A stretch of 64,000 bases of DNA from Haloarcula pelagica (GTDB lineage Archaea; Halobacteriota; Halobacteria; Halobacteriales; Haloarculaceae), in NCBI RefSeq assembly GCF_030127105.1, contig NZ_CP126162.1, forward strand, positions 372,001 through 436,000, read 5' to 3'. The position numbers were made by a program, and so were the translations under genes. The notes below the pieces were generated by a model, which had not been told where the DNA came from, did no database searches, and saw only the letters and a list, made by a program, of their open reading frames with translations. Positions 42,405 through 57,991 of the stretch are shown here, piece by piece. The first letter of the stretch is position 1. Every line of letters begins with the position of its first letter.

Positions 42405-42920
42405 TCACGTCGGTTCACCGGGACCGCCCAGGGCGACGAAGACGGCCCCTTTCATCCCGAGTGACTGGTGTGGGCTACAGTAGTAGCGATAGACCCCTGG
42501 CCTCTCGACGGTCCACTCGAACGTGTAGCCGGCCTGGTCGATGGGGCGGCCACTCGTGAACACCCCGCTGGTCGAGACGCAGTTGTGGGTCCCGCCCCGT
42601 CCGGTCCAGGTCCAGACGACCGTCGTCCCGGGCGAGACTGCCACCGCTGCTGGCCCGTAGTAGTAGTAGCCGTTGGCGCCCTGGACCCCCACGGAGACGC
42701 CGGTCGTCTCCTGGCCGCGCGCGTCGACGGTCCCCCGGTAGTTGCTGACGTTCTCGAACCAGCCCTGGTAGTTGGGTTCCGTCGGAACGTACGTCTCGTC
42801 GCCGTCGTCGTCGGGATCCCCTCGACAGCCGGCGACCGCGGTGCTCCCGACCGCCAGGCTCACACCCAGCGCGCGGAGGAACGACCGCCGCCCGCCGCCA
42901 GCGTTGGTCGTCGGCGCCAC
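42405..42920 (-). CDS. halocyanin-type blue-copper lipoprotein
   Basis: A 171-residue exported cupredoxin. It has a twin-arginine N-terminus (GRRSFLRALGVSLAVG), a lipobox ending VAGC, then a plastocyanin-like domain (about 45-165). Type 1 copper ligands are His in GGTHNCVS, then Cys, His and Met in YYCSPHQSLGMKGAV. Unlike the other halocyanins, the residue after the ligand His-Asn is Cys, not Val. It would carry electrons at the outer membrane face. It lies 6 bases downstream of the DUF7475-like gene and is probably in one operon with it. Confidence 0.92.
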   Translation of the reverse strand: MAPTTNAGGGRRSFLRALGVSLAVGSTAVAGCRGDPDDDGDETYVPTEPNYQGWFENVSNYRGTVDARGQETTGVSVGVQGANGYYYYGPAAVAVSPGTTVVWTWTGRGGTHNCVSTSGVFTSGRPIDQAGYTFEWTVERPGVYRYYCSPHQSLGMKGAVFVALGGPGEPT

Positions 42921-48181: not shown

Positions 48182-50560
48182 TCAATCGGCGTCGGCGGCG
48201 ACCGCGGCCGTCGGCTCCCGAGGCCGGGACCCGGGCGTGTCCGACCCCGACGACAGCGACCGGGCGGAGTTCCCGACGACCAGCAGGCTGCTCGCGGCCA
48301 TCGCCAGCGCGGCGAACAGTGGATTGAGGACTCCCAGCAGCGCGAGCGGGAGCGCGACGGCGTTGTAACAGAACGCCCACGCGAGGTTCTGGCGGATGCG
48401 CGAGCGAGTCGCGGCGGTGAGGGAGAATACCGCCGGGACCTGCCGGAGGTCGTCCGTGGTCACGACTGCGTCGGCGGCCTCGGCCGCGAGTTTCGTGCCC
48501 GACTCCAACGCGATACCCAGGTCCGCGGTCCCGAGCGCCGGCGCGTCGTTGGTCCCGTCCCCCACCATGGCGACTGTCCCGCGGGACTGGAGGCGCCCGA
48601 CGACCTCGGCCTTCGCCTCGGGAGGGACGCCGGCGAACACCTCGTCGACGGCGTCGTGCGTCCGGAACTGTTCGGCGGCCTCGGGGCTGTCGCCGGTGAT
48701 GACGACGACCTCGTGGTCGGCGGCCAGCGCGGCGACGACCGATTCCCAGTCGTCCCGCGGGCGGTCGCCGCCGACGATCGCGTCCCGGGCGCGCCCGTCC
48801 CACCCGACGAGCGCGGGGACGTTGGCCTCGGCCCGTGCCTGTTCACACCGTTCCCGGAGGGCTGGGGAGACGGTCAACCCCTCGTCGACGAGCAGCGACG
48901 GCGTGCCGACGACGACGCGCTCCCCGTCGACAGTCGCGCTGACGCCCCGACCGGGGTGTTGCTCGAACCCGTCGACAGTCGCGGTCGGGGCCGACGCGGC
49001 GTCCGTGATCGCCGCCGCGAGCGGGTGGTCGGCGAACTGCTCGACCGCGGCGGCCCGGCGCATGGCCGGGTCGTCGGCCCGTTCGAACAGGGTCACGTCG
49101 CCCGTCGTCAGCGTCCCGGTCTTGTCGAAGGCGACCACGTCGGCCTCGGTAGCCGTCTCGAACACGGCGCCGTCGGTGACGACAACACCGTCGTCGAGCG
49201 CCTGTTTCACGCCCGCGGCCGTCGCCAGTGGTGTCGCCAGCCCGAGCGCGCAAGGACAGGAGACGACCAGCACCGCCAGCCCGGTCAACAGCGCGTCGGT
49301 CGGCGCCGCGCCGGCGGCCAGGTGTGCGCCGGTCGCTACGACGGCGAGGACGACCACGAGCGGGACGAAGACGGCGGCGATCCGGTCGACGAGCCGCTGG
49401 ACATCCCCTCGGTCGCTCTGGACCTCCCAGAGGAGGTCCGTCAGCCGGTCGACCGTGCTCCGTGCGTCGGGGCCGACCGAGACGACGAGGCCGCCGTCGG
49501 TGACCAGTCCGCCGCCGACCACCTCGTCGCCGGGGGTCTTCCGGACGGGCAGGGACTCCCCGGTGACCAGCGACTCGTCGACGGCTGCGGTCCCCTCGTG
49601 CACCGTCCCGTCGACCGGGACTCGCTCGCCCTCGCCGACGACCACCTCGTCGCCGGGCGCGAGGTCGTCGAGGCCGACCGTCTCGGTCCCGTCAGTGGTC
49701 CGCCGGCGAGCGCTGTCGGCGCGTTGCTCGGTGAGGTCGGTCAGCCGCCCGGCCGCGGCCTCGCGGACCCGGTCCTGGTAGTAGTCGCCGATCGAGACGG
49801 CCAGGACGATGACCGTCGCCACGTCGAAGTACACCTCCGTGTGGCCCACCAGCAGGGCGAGGACGCTGTAGCCGAAGGCCGTCGTCGCGGCCATCGCCAC
49901 GAGCAGGTCCATGTTCGGCCGGCCGGCCTGCAGACTGACGTAGGCGCCCCGCAGGATCGGAAAGCCAGTGTAGCCGACGACCACGGCGGCCATCACGGCG
50001 GTGTTCCACAGCAGGTACGCCCCGGCCGGGCCAGTGGGGTCAACGAACAGGAACTCGCTCCCGAGTCCGAGATAGGCCGGGTAGAGAAAGAGGACGTACC
50101 ACAGCATCGTCATCATCCCGAAAAAGCCCCCGACCAGCAGCCGGCCTTCGAGTTCGTGGTCGTCGCCGGCGTCCGTGTCGGCCGGGCCGGCCTCGTAGCC
50201 GGTCCCCGCGACGACCGCGGGCAGCTCCGCGGCCGAGAGCCGTTCGGGGTCGTAGCTGAGTTTCATCGTCCCGGTCGAGTAGCTCGCGGCAGCGCCGGCG
50301 ACTCCCTCGCGGTCGGTCGCTCGGGCTTCCAGAAACGTCTCGCAGGTCGCACAGTGCATCCCGTCGACGGAGAGATACGCCGTCTCGCCGTCGACGGCGT
50401 CGGGGTCGGCGCCGCTTTCGACATCCTCGACGGACCGGTCTGTGGGCTCGTCCAGCGTCCGGGCGACTTCCAGACAGCCCCGACAGCAGAACTCGCCGCC
50501 GACACCGCTGTCGGTGACGGGCGGATCGGCCGACAGCCCACAGAGTGTACAGTCCGTCAT
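48182..50560 (-). CDS. copper-type P1B ATPase with CcoI/FixI-like N-terminus
   Basis: A 792-residue heavy-metal P-type ATPase. The N-terminus has a Cys-rich CTLCGLSADPP and EFCCRGCLEV domain as in CcoI/FixI, then a GMHCATC metal-binding domain (about 68-74). The membrane CPC motif is in VVSCPCALG, the phosphorylation site is Asp479 in DKTGTLT, with TGES, the HP dipeptide (ADHPLAA) and GDGTNDAPALG also present. It should move Cu(I) across the membrane. The CcoI-type N-terminus and the adjacent oxidase operon suggest supply of copper to the terminal oxidase. It lies 4 bases after the SafE-type gene. Confidence 0.93.
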   Translation of the reverse strand: MTDCTLCGLSADPPVTDSGVGGEFCCRGCLEVARTLDEPTDRSVEDVESGADPDAVDGETAYLSVDGMHCATCETFLEARATDREGVAGAAASYSTGTMKLSYDPERLSAAELPAVVAGTGYEAGPADTDAGDDHELEGRLLVGGFFGMMTMLWYVLFLYPAYLGLGSEFLFVDPTGPAGAYLLWNTAVMAAVVVGYTGFPILRGAYVSLQAGRPNMDLLVAMAATTAFGYSVLALLVGHTEVYFDVATVIVLAVSIGDYYQDRVREAAAGRLTDLTEQRADSARRRTTDGTETVGLDDLAPGDEVVVGEGERVPVDGTVHEGTAAVDESLVTGESLPVRKTPGDEVVGGGLVTDGGLVVSVGPDARSTVDRLTDLLWEVQSDRGDVQRLVDRIAAVFVPLVVVLAVVATGAHLAAGAAPTDALLTGLAVLVVSCPCALGLATPLATAAGVKQALDDGVVVTDGAVFETATEADVVAFDKTGTLTTGDVTLFERADDPAMRRAAAVEQFADHPLAAAITDAASAPTATVDGFEQHPGRGVSATVDGERVVVGTPSLLVDEGLTVSPALRERCEQARAEANVPALVGWDGRARDAIVGGDRPRDDWESVVAALAADHEVVVITGDSPEAAEQFRTHDAVDEVFAGVPPEAKAEVVGRLQSRGTVAMVGDGTNDAPALGTADLGIALESGTKLAAEAADAVVTTDDLRQVPAVFSLTAATRSRIRQNLAWAFCYNAVALPLALLGVLNPLFAALAMAASSLLVVGNSARSLSSGSDTPGSRPREPTAAVAADAD

Positions 50561-50564
50561 CGGC

Positions 50565-51337
50565 TCACATCCACGGCATCGGCAGCGGTGGTTTCGGTAG
50601 CGAGACTCCGAAGACGCCCAGCCCGTTCGACAGCGGGACGAGCGCGAGCACCAAGAAGACGGCTCCGAGGACCCGATGGATCGCGACCCGGCGAGCGGGG
50701 GACAGCGACCCGAACGCCGTCCCGTAGGCGAACACCAGCGGGATGGTCCCGAGCCCGAGCGCCGCGAGCGAGAGCCCACCGGTCACTGCCGATCCGGTGG
50801 CGAAGGCGTACAGAAACGCGGGGTACAGCAACGGACACGGGAGCAGCCCGTGCATCGCACCGAGCGCGACCATCCCGGGGCCGTCGACCCAGGCGTCGAC
50901 GCGGGCGACCAGTGCCGCCGACACTCGGCGGAAGAGCCCGCCGACGACCGGGACCGACGCCGCGATGTCGACGGCGTTCCCACGTGTGAGATAACCCAGA
51001 CCGACCGCGAGGATGGCGAGTCCGACGGCGACGCCGACGACACCGCGGACGGCCGTCCCGAGCCGGGCCAGGCCGGCCACGTCGAACAGGGCACCGCCGG
51101 CGGCCCCAGCGCCGCGCCGACGACTGTGTAGCTGACCGCCCGGCCGACGTTGAACGCGGCCTGCTGGCGGAGTTCGTGGAGCGACACCGGACCACCGTCG
51201 TCCAGCCGCTCGGCGTAGGTCGTCACCAGCGGGCCACACATCCCGAGACAGTGGACGCTCCCGACGAGGCCGAGGCCGGCGAAGGCGGCGATCCCGACGG
51301 TCTCGCCGGCGGTCAGGCCTCCGCTCAGCGGTCCCAT
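50565..51337 (-). CDS. SafE/CcoH2-type membrane protein, frame interrupted at 51104-51107
   Basis: A multi-helix protein of the sulfite-exporter/urease-accessory (SafE, UreH-like) type. Residues 1-78 (from ATG 51337) include GSVHCLGMCGPLVTT, the conserved Cys-x-x-x-Cys helix of this family. After VVGAALG the frame breaks; adding one G to the four-G run restores a protein of about 257 residues continuing AAGGALFDVAGLARLG to PLPMPWM. The second half has AMHGLLPCPLLYP, matching the second Cys helix. Such proteins assist copper loading of oxidases or cytochrome c assembly. It lies in an operon with the copper ATPase. Confidence 0.8.
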
Positions 51338-51338
51338 C

Positions 51339-51515
51339 TCAGGCGGGCTGGCCCTCGTGGGGCGCGGTCATCAGATAGAGGCTCGCGGCGATGATGACGA
51401 CGCTGACGAGCGACAGCGCGACGATGGTCCGCCCCGTTCCCTGGAGATAGTACGCGACGGGCGCCAGCCCGAGCAGGGCCAGCACCGTCACGAGTCGCGG
51501 ACTGGATCCGGACAT
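51339..51515 (-). CDS. small membrane protein of the oxidase/copper operon
   Basis: A 58-residue protein with two helices (about 7-22 and 30-48) and an acidic C-terminus (APHEGQPA). It is too short for most gene finders but has an ATG, a TATA box at leaderless distance (51538-51547), and a stop 1 base before the SafE-type ATG. It starts the copper operon. It may be a small oxidase-assembly subunit (compare the CbaC/CbaD names used in haloarchaea), which I cannot confirm. Confidence 0.65.
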   Translation of the reverse strand: MSGSSPRLVTVLALLGLAPVAYYLQGTGRTIVALSLVSVVIIAASLYLMTAPHEGQPA

Positions 51516-51537
51516 ACTCGCCCCTAAGATGGAGGGG

Positions 51538-51595
51538 ACATAAAAACGATAGGCCCGTTCCTGACCGGCGGGAAGGCGGGATCAGATTTTTTAAA
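51538..51595. promoter_or_regulatory. divergent promoters of the copper operon and the oxidase operon
   Basis: Minus-strand box GTTTTTATGT (51538-51547) is about 27 nt before ATG 51515. Plus-strand box TTTTTTAAAC (51587-51596) precedes a possible 21-codon leader frame at 51617-51682. The halocyanin gene itself has a GGAGGGG Shine-Dalgarno site at 51661-51667, 5 nt before ATG 51673. One 157-bp region thus serves both operons and could coordinate copper supply with oxidase expression. Confidence 0.5.
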
Positions 51596-51672
51596 CTGGT
51601 TGTTGACGGCCCGACTATGGGCCGATCAACTGCTGGAGCATCGCACGGCTCGCGACACCGGGAGGGGTCGCG

Positions 51673-52857
51673 ATGGCGCTGAACCGGCGTCAGTTCGTCC
51701 AGACAGCGGCTGCTGCCGGAGCGCTGGCCGGAGCTGGCACGGCGACTGCACAGGAAGAACCCGACTACGGCGGCTGGTTCGACGACGTATCGAACTTCGA
51801 GGGCACCGTCGACAGGCGGGGCCAGGACACCGTCGAGATCACCGTCGGTGCGGAGGGCAACAACGGCGCGTTCGCGTTCGATCCACCCGCGGTGATGGTC
51901 AGTCCGGGGACGGAGGTCGTCTGGACCTGGACGGGCGCGGGTGGGGGCCACAACGTCGTCTCGGACGGCGACGGGCCGCTGAACTCGGGCGATCCGGTGT
52001 CGGAGTCGGGGACGACCTACAGCCACACCTTCGAGAGCGAGGGGATCTTCAAGTACGTCTGTACGCCCCACGAGGCGCTGGGGATGAAAGGCGCCGTCGT
52101 GGTCCGACCGGGCGGGTCCGGTGGCGGGGGCGACCAGCCGACGGGGCCGCCGGCCAACCCCGACTACGGCGGCTTCTTCGACGGTGTCTCGAACTTCGAC
52201 GGGGAGACCGTCGACCGGACCGGCCAGGATTCCGTCGAGATCAGCGTCGGTGCACAGGGCAACAACGGCGCGTTCGCCTTCGACCCGCCGGCGGTCCGCG
52301 TCTCGCCAGGGACAGAAGTCGTCTGGACCTGGACGGGCGCGGGCGGCGGTCACAACGTCGTCTCGGCCGGCGACGGGCCGCTGAACTCCGGTGATCCGGT
52401 GTCGGAGTCGGGGACGACCTACAGCCACACCTTCGAGGACACCGGCATCTACCGGTACGTCTGTACGCCCCACGAGGCGCTGGGAATGAAAGGCGCCGTC
52501 GTCGTGGGCGCACCCCCGGGAAGCAGCGGTGGCGGCGGTGGCGGACCGAGCGTCGAGGTCTCGGGGCCGCGCTGGCTCTTTACGAGTTCGATCATGCTGG
52601 CGTTTTTCACGCCGCTGCTGTACGCGGCCGCGGTGCGCCGCCGGAAGGGACAGGCCCCGCCCTCGGTCACCGACGAGGACGGGCAGGCACTCGTCGAGGA
52701 AGCGGCGGAGACGGCACCGGCCAACGAGATCGGTCACGACGAGTACGACCCCTGGGGGACGGCCGCCCTGGTGGCGTTCTACTTCGTGTTGATCGCCCTG
52801 CTGTGGGTGTTCATGTACTTCGTGGAGTTCCTCGGCCGCGTCTCGGTGATCGGGTGA
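51673..52857 (+). CDS. tandem-halocyanin protein with two C-terminal membrane helices
   Basis: A 394-residue protein: Tat signal (NRRQFVQTAAAAGALAGAG), cupredoxin domain 1 (about 30-145) with copper ligands His93, Cys130, His133, Met138, a Gly-rich linker, cupredoxin domain 2 (about 164-279) with His227, Cys264, His267, Met272, then helices at about 302-321 and 362-386. The final helix (WGTAALVAFYFVLIALLWVF) resembles the short subunit of ba3-type oxidases. It likely delivers electrons to subunit II at the outer face while anchored in the complex. It is first in the operon with cbaB (4-nt gap). Confidence 0.88.
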   Translation: MALNRRQFVQTAAAAGALAGAGTATAQEEPDYGGWFDDVSNFEGTVDRRGQDTVEITVGAEGNNGAFAFDPPAVMVSPGTEVVWTWTGAGGGHNVVSDGDGPLNSGDPVSESGTTYSHTFESEGIFKYVCTPHEALGMKGAVVVRPGGSGGGGDQPTGPPANPDYGGFFDGVSNFDGETVDRTGQDSVEISVGAQGNNGAFAFDPPAVRVSPGTEVVWTWTGAGGGHNVVSAGDGPLNSGDPVSESGTTYSHTFEDTGIYRYVCTPHEALGMKGAVVVGAPPGSSGGGGGGPSVEVSGPRWLFTSSIMLAFFTPLLYAAAVRRRKGQAPPSVTDEDGQALVEEAAETAPANEIGHDEYDPWGTAALVAFYFVLIALLWVFMYFVEFLGRVSVIG

Positions 52858-52861
52858 TATC

Positions 52862-53407
52862 ATGCAGGTCCACAACTTCGAGAAAATCTGGCTCGGTGTC
52901 GCGCTCCTGTTGATCGTCGGCTTCATCGCCACCATCGCCTACGGGTCGGTCGGCGCTGGCATCTCGATGGTCGACGACAGCGGCGGAACGATCAGCGCCC
53001 AGGCGGTCCAGAGCGGCGAGACCGGTACGGGATTCGACGACCCCGGCGTGGTCAAACAGAGCGACGACCACTACGTCGTCTACGTCGTCGCCCAGCAGTT
53101 CCAGTTCCGCCCGGGCAGCGGTGACAACCCGATCAGAGTCCCGGCCGACGCCCGGATCACCTTCATGGTGACCAGCCCGGACGTGGTCCACGGCTTCTCG
53201 ATCACTGAAACGAACATCAACACAATGGTTATCCCAGGACAGGTCGCGGAGGTCTCGGCACGGTTCGACGAGCCTGGCACGTACGGGCTGGTCTGTCACG
53301 AGTACTGTGGCGCGGGCCACCACACGATGGGCGGCTCCATCGAGGTGGTCGCGCCCTCGAACTACACCGCCCAGCAGCAGGCGGTCGACGGGGAGGTGAG
53401 CGCCTGA
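52862..53407 (+). CDS. cbaB: ba3-type cytochrome c oxidase subunit II
   Basis: A 181-residue CuA subunit with one N-terminal helix (about 10-30) and an outer cupredoxin domain. CuA ligands read His110, Cys145, Glu147, Cys149, His153 and Met156 in HGFSITETN and CHEYCGAGHHTMGG, the same spacing as Thermus ba3 subunit II. It takes electrons from the halocyanin and passes them to subunit I. Its stop overlaps the subunit I ATG by 1 base. Confidence 0.95.
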   Translation: MQVHNFEKIWLGVALLLIVGFIATIAYGSVGAGISMVDDSGGTISAQAVQSGETGTGFDDPGVVKQSDDHYVVYVVAQQFQFRPGSGDNPIRVPADARITFMVTSPDVVHGFSITETNINTMVIPGQVAEVSARFDEPGTYGLVCHEYCGAGHHTMGGSIEVVAPSNYTAQQQAVDGEVSA

Positions 53408-55095
53408 TGGTCTACGTCGACGAGTTCCCGAAGACGGCGAAACTCGTGCGGGGCCAGTTCCTCGTCGCCTTCGGCGCCCTGGCTATCGGGGCGCTCTTCG
53501 GCGTGATCCAGGCGCTCCACCGGACCGGCGTCTTCCGTGGCTTCGTCAGTTCGGCGGACTACTACACGCTGCTGACCGGCCACGGCGTCCTGCTGGCGCT
53601 GGTGTTTACGACCTTCTTCATCGCCGGGCTGTTCGGCTGGGCGGTCTCGAACAGCCTCGACCGGGAGCTGTCACAGCGACTCGCCTGGGGCGGGTTCTGG
53701 ACGATGCTCGTCGGGACGGTCCTCGCCGCAGTCGCCATCATCGGCGGGCTCATCGGGGCGCCCAGCATCCTCGGGCACTCGCTGAAGGCCGACGTGCTCT
53801 TTACGTTCTACGCGCCGATGAAGGCCCACCCCGCGTTCTACGTCGGGGCGGCGCTGATCATCGTCGGTTCCTGGGTCGCTGGGGCCTCGTACTTCAAGTC
53901 GCTGTGGGAGTGGCGCTCTGAGAACCCCGGCGAGCGCATCCCGCTGCGGACGTTCATGGTCGTGACCACGATGCTGATGTGGTACATCTCGACTATCGGC
54001 GTCGCCGTCGAGGTGGTCGCCTTCCTCATCCCGTGGTCGCTGGGACTGATCCAGAACGTCGACCCACTGCTGACCCGGACGCTGTTCTGGTACTTCGGCC
54101 ACCCGGTCGTGTACTTCTGGCTCATGCCGGCGTATCTGGTCTGGTACACGATCCTGCCGAAACTGGCCGGCGGGCGGCTGTTCAGCGACCCGCTCGCACG
54201 CGTCGTGTTCGTCCTCTTCCTCTTGCTGTCGACGCCGGTCGGCTTCCACCACCAGTACGTCGACCCCGGCATCCCGGAAGGGTTCAAGTTCATCGCGATG
54301 ACGAACACGATGTTCCTCCTGCTCCCGTCGCTTCTGACCGCCTTCACCGTGGTCGCCTCGATGGAACACGGGGCGCGTCAGCGCGGCGGAAAGGGGTACC
54401 TCTCCTGGCTCCGTGACCTGCCGTGGGGCAACCCCGCTTTCGCCGGCTGTGCGCTCGCGGGGCTGATGTTCGCCGCCGGCGGGTTCAGCGGGATGATCAA
54501 CGCCGGGATGAACATCAACTACCTCATCCACAACACGCTGTGGGTCCCCGGTCACTTCCACCTCACCGTCGGGACGGCCTTCGCACTGACGGCCATGGCG
54601 ATCAGTTACTGGCTGGTCCCACAGCTCACCGGAAAACAGCTCCAGCGGCGCTCGCTGGCGCTGGCCCAGCCCTACGTCTGGTTCATCGGCATGACCCTGA
54701 TGTCCAACGCCATGCACCGCGCGGGGCTGGCCGGCATCCCGCGCCGGACCGCCGAACCGACCTACGACGAGTTCGCCTTCGAGGGGGTCGCCGGCACCGT
54801 CGGCGAGATGCGCCTCCAGATCGCGATCGGGGGCTTCCTGCTGTTCGTCGGCGCCGCCCTCTTCCTGATCGTGATGGCCGAGACGTTCCTGGCTCGCCGT
54901 GGCGGGACCCTCTCGGTCAACAGCACGATCCCGGAGCCCCTGTCCGGTCCCGAGCACAGCCCGCGCATCCTCGACAACTACAAGCTCTGGACGGCCATCG
55001 CGCTGGTGCTCATCGTCATCGCATACGGGCCGCCCCTGGCGAGCATGATCGCCGACGGCATCACCGCGCCCGGGAGCCCGCCGATCCCGGTCTGA
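53407..55095 (+). CDS. cbaA: ba3-type cytochrome c oxidase subunit I
   Basis: A 562-residue subunit with about 13 helices. Haem and copper ligands are all present: His59 (low-spin haem) in TGHGVLLALV, His232 and Tyr236 in GHPVVYF (CuB and the cross-linked Tyr), His281 and His282 (CuB), and His383 and His385 in GHFHLTVG (haem a3 and b). It reduces O2 to water and pumps protons. The D-channel residues of A-type oxidases are absent, as expected for B-type enzymes. Confidence 0.97.
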   Translation: MVYVDEFPKTAKLVRGQFLVAFGALAIGALFGVIQALHRTGVFRGFVSSADYYTLLTGHGVLLALVFTTFFIAGLFGWAVSNSLDRELSQRLAWGGFWTMLVGTVLAAVAIIGGLIGAPSILGHSLKADVLFTFYAPMKAHPAFYVGAALIIVGSWVAGASYFKSLWEWRSENPGERIPLRTFMVVTTMLMWYISTIGVAVEVVAFLIPWSLGLIQNVDPLLTRTLFWYFGHPVVYFWLMPAYLVWYTILPKLAGGRLFSDPLARVVFVLFLLLSTPVGFHHQYVDPGIPEGFKFIAMTNTMFLLLPSLLTAFTVVASMEHGARQRGGKGYLSWLRDLPWGNPAFAGCALAGLMFAAGGFSGMINAGMNINYLIHNTLWVPGHFHLTVGTAFALTAMAISYWLVPQLTGKQLQRRSLALAQPYVWFIGMTLMSNAMHRAGLAGIPRRTAEPTYDEFAFEGVAGTVGEMRLQIAIGGFLLFVGAALFLIVMAETFLARRGGTLSVNSTIPEPLSGPEHSPRILDNYKLWTAIALVLIVIAYGPPLASMIADGITAPGSPPIPV

Positions 55096-55125: not shown

Positions 55126-55683
55126 ATGTTCGACGACATCGACGGCCCCGAACAGACGACGCTGGTCCGGACACTGATCGTCCTGGCGATCGCGCTCCCG
55201 ATTCTCATCGAGGTGGCGACCTTCGGGAGTCTGCTCAGTCATTCGCTGCTGGGGGTCGGCGGCGACGCCGGTGGCGCCGCGACAGCGACGGCGACGCCGA
55301 CGGCCGAGATCGAGGGGGCCAGCGTCGGCGACGAAGTCCTGCCCGCGACGCCGGCAGTCGAGCGGATCGATCGCGCCGCTGTCGTCACCGGTGAGGACGG
55401 CTGGCGGTTCGTCCTGACGGTGGCCGTCTCGAACCCAACCGATCACCCCTACGAGCTTCGACTGGGCGAGGTCCACACGAGGGACGGCGAGACGGTCGCC
55501 GGCGGCGCGACGACCGGGACCGTCGCCGCCGGCGGGAACGGGACCGTCACCGGCGCGTGGGTCCTCCCGACGGGCCACCAGCCCGAGACGGTCGCCGTCA
55601 CGGCGGTCGACCGGACCGCTGACGGGGCCGAGACGGAGACGTACTCCATCCGGCTCGGCTCGGTCCAGCTCTCGAACGGCTGA
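55126..55683 (+). CDS. oxidase-operon membrane-anchored protein
   Basis: A 185-residue protein with one N-terminal helix (about 14-40, IVLAIALPILIEVATFGSLL) and an outer beta-type domain (about 65-183) of Ig-like character (FVLTVAVSNPTDHPYELRLGEV). It directly follows cbaA (30-nt gap). It may be a haloarchaeal CbaE-like accessory subunit, but I cannot match it to one with confidence. Confidence 0.65.
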   Translation: MFDDIDGPEQTTLVRTLIVLAIALPILIEVATFGSLLSHSLLGVGGDAGGAATATATPTAEIEGASVGDEVLPATPAVERIDRAAVVTGEDGWRFVLTVAVSNPTDHPYELRLGEVHTRDGETVAGGATTGTVAAGGNGTVTGAWVLPTGHQPETVAVTAVDRTADGAETETYSIRLGSVQLSNG

Positions 55684-57280: not shown

Positions 57281-57475
57281 GGGGGCGTGGTCGATCGAAC
57301 CGCCGTGTAGTGGTGATCGCGGTGTCCGCACTCGGTACGGTTCGTCGTTCAGTGACGACGAGGTAGTTCGTTGCTATGAGGGATATATACCACACTGAGC
57401 CGAACGTAGTGCTTTGTGGGCGTCCGGCGGGAGAAAGCGACGGCTAACTACGGCACTGGACGCGCGACTGTCCGT

Positions 57476-57991
57476 ATGGCGACGCATCCGACCAGACGGC
57501 GGTATCTGACCGCGGCGACCGCTCTCGCCTGTCTCGCTGCGGGCTGTGGCGGCGACGGCGGTGACGGCGGCGACGGCGCGCCTGGCCCGGACGACTACCC
57601 CCTGATCGACCAGTGGCTCACCGAGACCGAAATCGGCGGGGCCGACGAGACCTACGACGGGACCTTTACCGACAGGCGCGGCCAGGACACGGTGACCGTC
57701 GACGTTGGGACCGAGGGCAACGGGGGGAACTTCGCGTACGCGCCCTCGGCGCTGGTCGTCTCGACCGGCACGGAAATCCGGTGGAACTGGACCGGCGAGG
57801 GGAACCCGCACAACGTCGAAGCGCTCCCCGAGGAGCAACTCGGGGAGTCGGACTACGAGTTCAGTTCCGGCGAAGCCGAGGGAGGGTCCGGAGTCAAGTA
57901 CACGCGCACGATGGACCAGGCCGGTATCGCGCTGTATCACTGTGAACCCCACTTCGCGCTGGGCATGAAGGGCGGGATCGGCGTCGAGTAG
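57476..57991 (+). CDS. halocyanin-type blue-copper lipoprotein
   Basis: A 171-residue exported cupredoxin. The N-terminus THPTRRRYLTAATALAC has a Tat-like pattern and a lipobox near AAGC. The domain (about 45-170) shows the copper ligands His in GNPHNVEA and Cys, His, Met in YHCEPHFALGMKGGIGV. Like the halocyanin at 42405 it would shuttle electrons at the cell surface, for example to the oxidase 4 kb upstream. Confidence 0.92.
   Translation: MATHPTRRRYLTAATALACLAAGCGGDGGDGGDGAPGPDDYPLIDQWLTETEIGGADETYDGTFTDRRGQDTVTVDVGTEGNGGNFAYAPSALVVSTGTEIRWNWTGEGNPHNVEALPEEQLGESDYEFSSGEAEGGSGVKYTRTMDQAGIALYHCEPHFALGMKGGIGVE

Follow-up and report, generated by a model that had tools for sequence, protein, structure and literature searches.

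A tandem halocyanin fused to the probable CbaD (subunit IIa) of a ba3-type oxidase in haloarchaea: distribution, topology and likeness of the two domains

The window, a stretch of 64,000 nucleotides from Haloarcula pelagica, contains an open reading frame of 394 amino acids with exact limits 51673-52857 (+), whose product is probably the IIa (CbaD) subunit of a ba3-type oxidase of haloarchaea, extended at its N-terminus by a tandem halocyanin donor. Arguing for this reading are the two TIGR03102 domains, the helix with a PxGT motif, the place in the operon, the two terminal helices, the company of cytochrome b, the halocyanin partner known from the literature, the homogenised domains, and the existence of one-domain versions. 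Haloarchaea pass electrons from quinol on to oxygen without using cytochrome c, by a route that is understood only in part, and fusing the donor to a core subunit of the oxidase genetically fixes one halocyanin partner.

Fusions of halocyanin to a helix have been in print since 2011, and neither the core idea nor the likely role is new. Subunit IIa was described as a halocyanin fusion in Halobacterium and Haloarcula (PMC3128077), the halocyanin/IIa fusion is restated in PMC3403918, and OE_4073R is listed as an uncharacterised halocyanin/cbaD fusion (PMC8305020); the core of our finding was, thus, already known. Likewise, halocyanin is the redox partner of ba3 in Natronomonas pharaonis, according to the literature. 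Halobacterium salinarum OE_4073R and Haloarcula marismortui YP_135809 resemble the protein reported here in that halocyanin is followed by a C-terminal IIa with PxGT, and the gene lies directly upstream of that for subunit II; judged by its published description, YP_135809, from the same genus, is very likely its orthologue. The accounts of these two proteins, as consulted in PMC3128077 and PMC8305020, do not discuss two domains, an adapter helix or domain homogenisation. Nor did we find any discussion of the doubled domain in the literature searched, which covered few subscription papers, and both this domain and the way in which its two copies remain alike appear to be little studied. The nearest named records, from Haloarcula plasmids (86–87% identity), are annotated only as 'halocyanin domain-containing protein'. 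What is added here is the distribution of the fusion, a topological reason for the first helix (TM1) and the homogenised tandem domains.

The product of the fused gene comprises, in this order, a Tat-type signal, two halocyanin domains and two C-terminal helices, and the oxidase genes follow on the same strand:

51673..51753 (+), Tat-type signal, residues 1-27 (MALNRRQFVQ...), without a lipobox; TIGR01409
51760..52107 (+), halocyanin domain 1, residues 30-145, with ligands H93, C130, H133 and M138; TIGR03102
52108..52158 (+), Gly/Pro-rich inter-domain linker, from the sequence; low pLDDT at residues 149-157
52159..52509 (+), halocyanin domain 2, residues 163-279, with ligands H227, C264, H267 and M272; TIGR03102
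52510..52578 (+), Gly-rich tether toward the membrane, from the sequence; pLDDT below 50 at residues 286-300
52579..52647 (+), TM1, followed by RRRKG, a proposed out-to-in topological adapter, from hydropathy, K/R count and a helix at residues 305-325
52750..52833 (+), IIa/CbaD helix with a PWGT (PxGT) motif, from the sequence; helix at residues 360-387 in the model
52862..53407 (+), cbaB, oxidase subunit II with an intact CuA motif (CHEYCGAGHHTM); COX2, 5.8e-13
53407..55095 (+), cbaA, ba3-type oxidase subunit I; COX1, 2.9e-89

The sequence-only reading had described a Tat-exported protein with two intact type 1 copper sites and two C-terminal helices, and signal and domain models, ligands and hydropathy bear this out. 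The TAT signal model TIGR01409 scored above its cut-off (19.7 bits vs 16.7) and Pfam TAT_signal below it (14.4 vs 22.7). TIGR03102 matched the protein twice, with a whole-protein E of 1.3e-105 and 347.5 bits against a curated cut-off of 93.8, and the type 1 copper ligands H, C, H and M are complete in both domains. Hydropathy places the hydrophobic helices at residues 303-321 and 366-384, and the AlphaFold model (single chain, mean pLDDT 69.5, 13 aligned rows) shows two beta-sandwich domains plus two helices at 305-325 and 360-387, joined by low-confidence linkers. A scan of viral contigs turned up no relative, so that only 13 rows stand behind this prediction. A structure search with the model retrieved cupredoxin proteins, although the mutual placement of the two domains is unreliable. 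The top matches are multi-domain cupredoxin enzymes and would suit a two-domain multicopper enzyme (an oxidase or reductase) instead of a carrier; nevertheless, with an rmsd of 13–20 and TM-scores near 0.2 only single domains fit, and the C-terminal IIa and the operon put the protein in the oxidase, which makes such an enzyme extremely improbable. Read directly, the sequence lacks the HxH motifs for T2/T3 copper, and a multicopper oxidase or two-domain laccase was rejected. A long minus-strand ORF (51325-52935) is the usual shadow frame of GC-rich DNA and is unsupported.

As had been noticed from the sequence, the fused gene lies directly ahead of the genes for oxidase subunits II and I, with 4 nt between its stop and the start of cbaB, which in turn overlaps cbaA by 1 nt. 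Their products belong with the B-family (ba3) heme-copper oxidases, because they are nearest to ba3 enzymes and the CuA ligands are intact: the best solved relative of CbaB is Thermus ba3 subunit 2 (3.8e-30), with which the CuA ligands align, and that of CbaA is Thermus ba3 subunit 1 (2e-128). Just past cbaA, positions 55126-55683 (+) encode a protein of 185 aa that has a single helix at the N-terminus and an outside domain, and for which no family exceeded its cut-off. Adjoining the oxidase is a divergent cluster (48182-51515, −) for a copper-type P-type ATPase, a DsbD_2-type membrane protein and a 58-aa membrane ORF, which possibly serves in copper delivery for the oxidase.

By its sequence, the last helix of the fusion is that of CbaD/subunit IIa. 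It has PWGT at residue 360 and a Trp within the helix, in agreement with the PxGT motif named for subunit IIa (PMC3128077) and with its conserved Trp, and PxGT is present in all the fused proteins that we read. The helix shows 55–73% identity with free and fused CbaD helices from other genomes, and the gene occupies the place of IIa, directly upstream of subunit II. When a profile of these helices was compared with the whole PDB, subunit IIa of Thermus ba3 alone matched, and its residues P-x-G, W and Y were in register; that nothing else matched supports the fused-donor reading, whereas the marginal E of 0.25 counts against it. Since the last helix corresponds to IIa, the protein is very likely a real oxidase subunit and built-in donor, as first proposed from the sequence, together with a two-copper relay that now looks less likely (see below). 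Also weighing against a subunit is that, in the literature searched, we found no biochemical report of an intact or co-purifying fusion.

Alternatively, the protein might be a membrane-anchored shuttle, whose halocyanin serves several acceptors (other oxidases or reductases) and whose IIa helix is only an anchor or an assembly factor near the oxidase. The eight COX1 matches in the H. pelagica genome would accommodate it, as would a free halocyanin that ends in a comparable helix and the free CbaD that works without halocyanin in most relatives. However, Thermus and Aquifex have IIa as a structural subunit (PMC3128077), and the fused gene stays directly before cbaB at every locus that we read; we thus regard a shuttle as quite improbable.

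The tail of the fusion protein matches 263 of the 391 genomes of the class, and from open frames and from reading the loci we found the fusion in 66 of these 391 haloarchaeal genomes; most relatives have a free CbaD without halocyanin. The recurrence of the same architecture ahead of cbaB/cbaA in many further genomes excludes a chance arrangement. Fused genomes are distributed in four families, with 31 in that of H. pelagica and 9, 25 and 1 in three others, and the class survey revealed no fusion in family f3; within the genus of H. pelagica, the fusion occurs in 24 of 25 genomes, H. pelagica counted. The sequence-only reading suggested a search for single- and double-domain versions in relatives, and both exist: 56 of the fused genomes have two domains, nine have one (in two clades) and one is frameshifted. 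This last is the orthologue from Halomicroarcula sp. SYNS111 (genome G333, L091:4250-5471), whose first halocyanin domain is split over two frames by a frameshift or a sequencing error. Through the survey, what had been remarks in print becomes a family open to testing, in which one-domain, two-domain and domain-less versions occur naturally; equivalent copper sites and a topological purpose of the added helix are predicted from it. Outside the archaea, the bacterium Aliifodinibius salipaludis (L094) combines a ba3 subunit I resembling that of haloarchaea (65% identity) with a free CbaD, which suggests a transfer between domains of life.

In each fused protein that we read, the last copper domain is followed by exactly two helices; a free CbaD usually has a single one. 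According to PMC3128077, subunit IIa superimposes on helix 1 of A-type subunit II but has the opposite polarity, which we take to be an inside-to-outside crossing. With the halocyanin outside and IIa running from inside to outside, an N-terminal join needs one more crossing of the membrane, for which TM1, with RRRKG behind it, is available; an out-to-in topological adapter would thus best explain the extra helix. Against this, and against a subunit, some clades lack K/R just behind TM1. The helix might have come with the donor, because H. pelagica also has a free halocyanin (L089:357-1055; 72% identity over residues 3-154) that has a similar helix at its C-terminus, followed by RRQTGE; this suggests that the fusion originated when an anchored halocyanin gene was joined to cbaD. 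Conversely, three loci (L058, L173 and L092) keep TM1 and IIa without halocyanin, and L092 retains a signal-like start and a Gly-rich linker. All three fall inside the fused group in the subunit I tree and have likely lost the halocyanin secondarily, although a constraint joining all fused rows in one clade without them was not rejected (p-AU 0.578), so that this loss is not proven.

Domains 1 and 2 of one protein are on average 84% identical (70–93%), compared to around 60% across lineages. A tree in which a single ancient duplication gave rise to two persistent domain types was rejected (p-AU 3.45e-05), in a single-tree test that is only approximate if conversion occurs. Likewise, the synonymous distance between the two domains of H. 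pelagica (0.41) equals or falls below the distances that separate its domains from their orthologues in genomes of the same genus (0.45–1.13), a measure limited by codon bias. Long runs of identical codons, sought as proof of gene conversion, were mostly non-significant (p 0.29 for the H. pelagica protein), and conversion is therefore stated only as consistent with the data; repeated duplication and gene conversion both fit the likeness of the domains.

All 99 domains of the fused relatives keep the copper ligands unchanged, and the few differences that recur between domains 1 and 2 lie at a distance from the ligand loops. Together with the lack of lasting domain types, this favours two equivalent, interchangeable carriers over a specialised relay. 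A directional relay, in which the two domains differ in role and potential, the first accepting the electron and the second handing it on to CuA, would agree with two intact copper sites in series along one chain, and with the few columns that differ between the domains in many lineages. It has to contend, however, with the location of those columns, with the one-domain versions in two clades, with domains that are near twins and whose separate lineages were rejected, and with a model that gives no reliable packing between them. Two sites with distinct roles, as the sequence-only reading had it, are therefore unlikely.

That same reading saw the fusion as replacing free halocyanin, which is unsupported: the H. 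pelagica genome contains 12 halocyanin domains over the cut-off, two in the fusion and ten elsewhere (two of them in the window), as well as a bc-type operon that encodes an anchored halocyanin of its own. The other halocyanins could serve the same oxidase, which counts against the fused-donor reading. Single-domain halocyanin genes flank the oxidase region at 57416-57991 (+) and 42405-42920 (−), and both have lipobox-like N-termini. The bc-type operon (L189:691-4272, −) encodes cytochrome b, a C-terminal part of cytochrome b, a Tat-type halocyanin with a C-terminal helix, a DUF7318 membrane protein, and a protein in which Rieske-like CTH...CQCH motifs were seen by eye and for which Pfam made no call. 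A close cytochrome b was found in 62 of 66 fused genomes, but among genomes with free CbaD in only 40 of the 66 sampled. The four exceptions, which also count against a fused donor, all fall into a single clade in the tree of subunit I, and since the sample is clustered by descent, the association of cytochrome b with the fusion rather than with free CbaD is only suggestive.

In the fused-donor reading that we prefer, both copper domains would be exported by Tat and remain outside on Gly-rich tethers, TM1 would cross from outside to inside, and the IIa helix would cross back and lie against subunit II, as it does in Thermus ba3. The two domains would be equivalent tethered carriers, and either might receive an electron from a bc-type complex, directly or through another halocyanin, and the loaded domain would then dock on CuA of CbaB; the second copy would most likely be a second carrier or buffer, not an obligatory relay station. 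Cytochrome ba3 of N. pharaonis (CbaABCDE) and of Thermus thermophilus (I, II, IIa) have the same subunit set I, II and IIa, but there CbaD/IIa is free and small and the donor separate. Tethered carriers with one or two centres also occur in caa3 oxidases and as cytochrome cc (QcrC) in actinobacterial bc-aa3 supercomplexes. These would work similarly, although they are not homologous to the fusion, which has copper for heme and is joined to IIa instead of subunit II or the bc complex. Tentatively, the two interchangeable carriers, kept alike by gene conversion, might even form part of a cytochrome-c-free supercomplex with the bc-type complex; given the anchored halocyanin of the bc-type operon, electrons would there pass between complexes only through tethered cupredoxins.

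Tandem halocyanin domains were also found without IIa, in a 300-aa protein with a lipobox-like start (L090:830-1732, −). Its domain 1 has SEPH at the expected ligand Cys and its domain 2 lacks the ligand Met (GQRG), so that both copper sites look altered. Finally, two halocyanin genes located 147 kb apart on contig C4 (G000:C4:31220-31708 and 178230-178718) have identical scores, and part of this contig may thus be duplicated.
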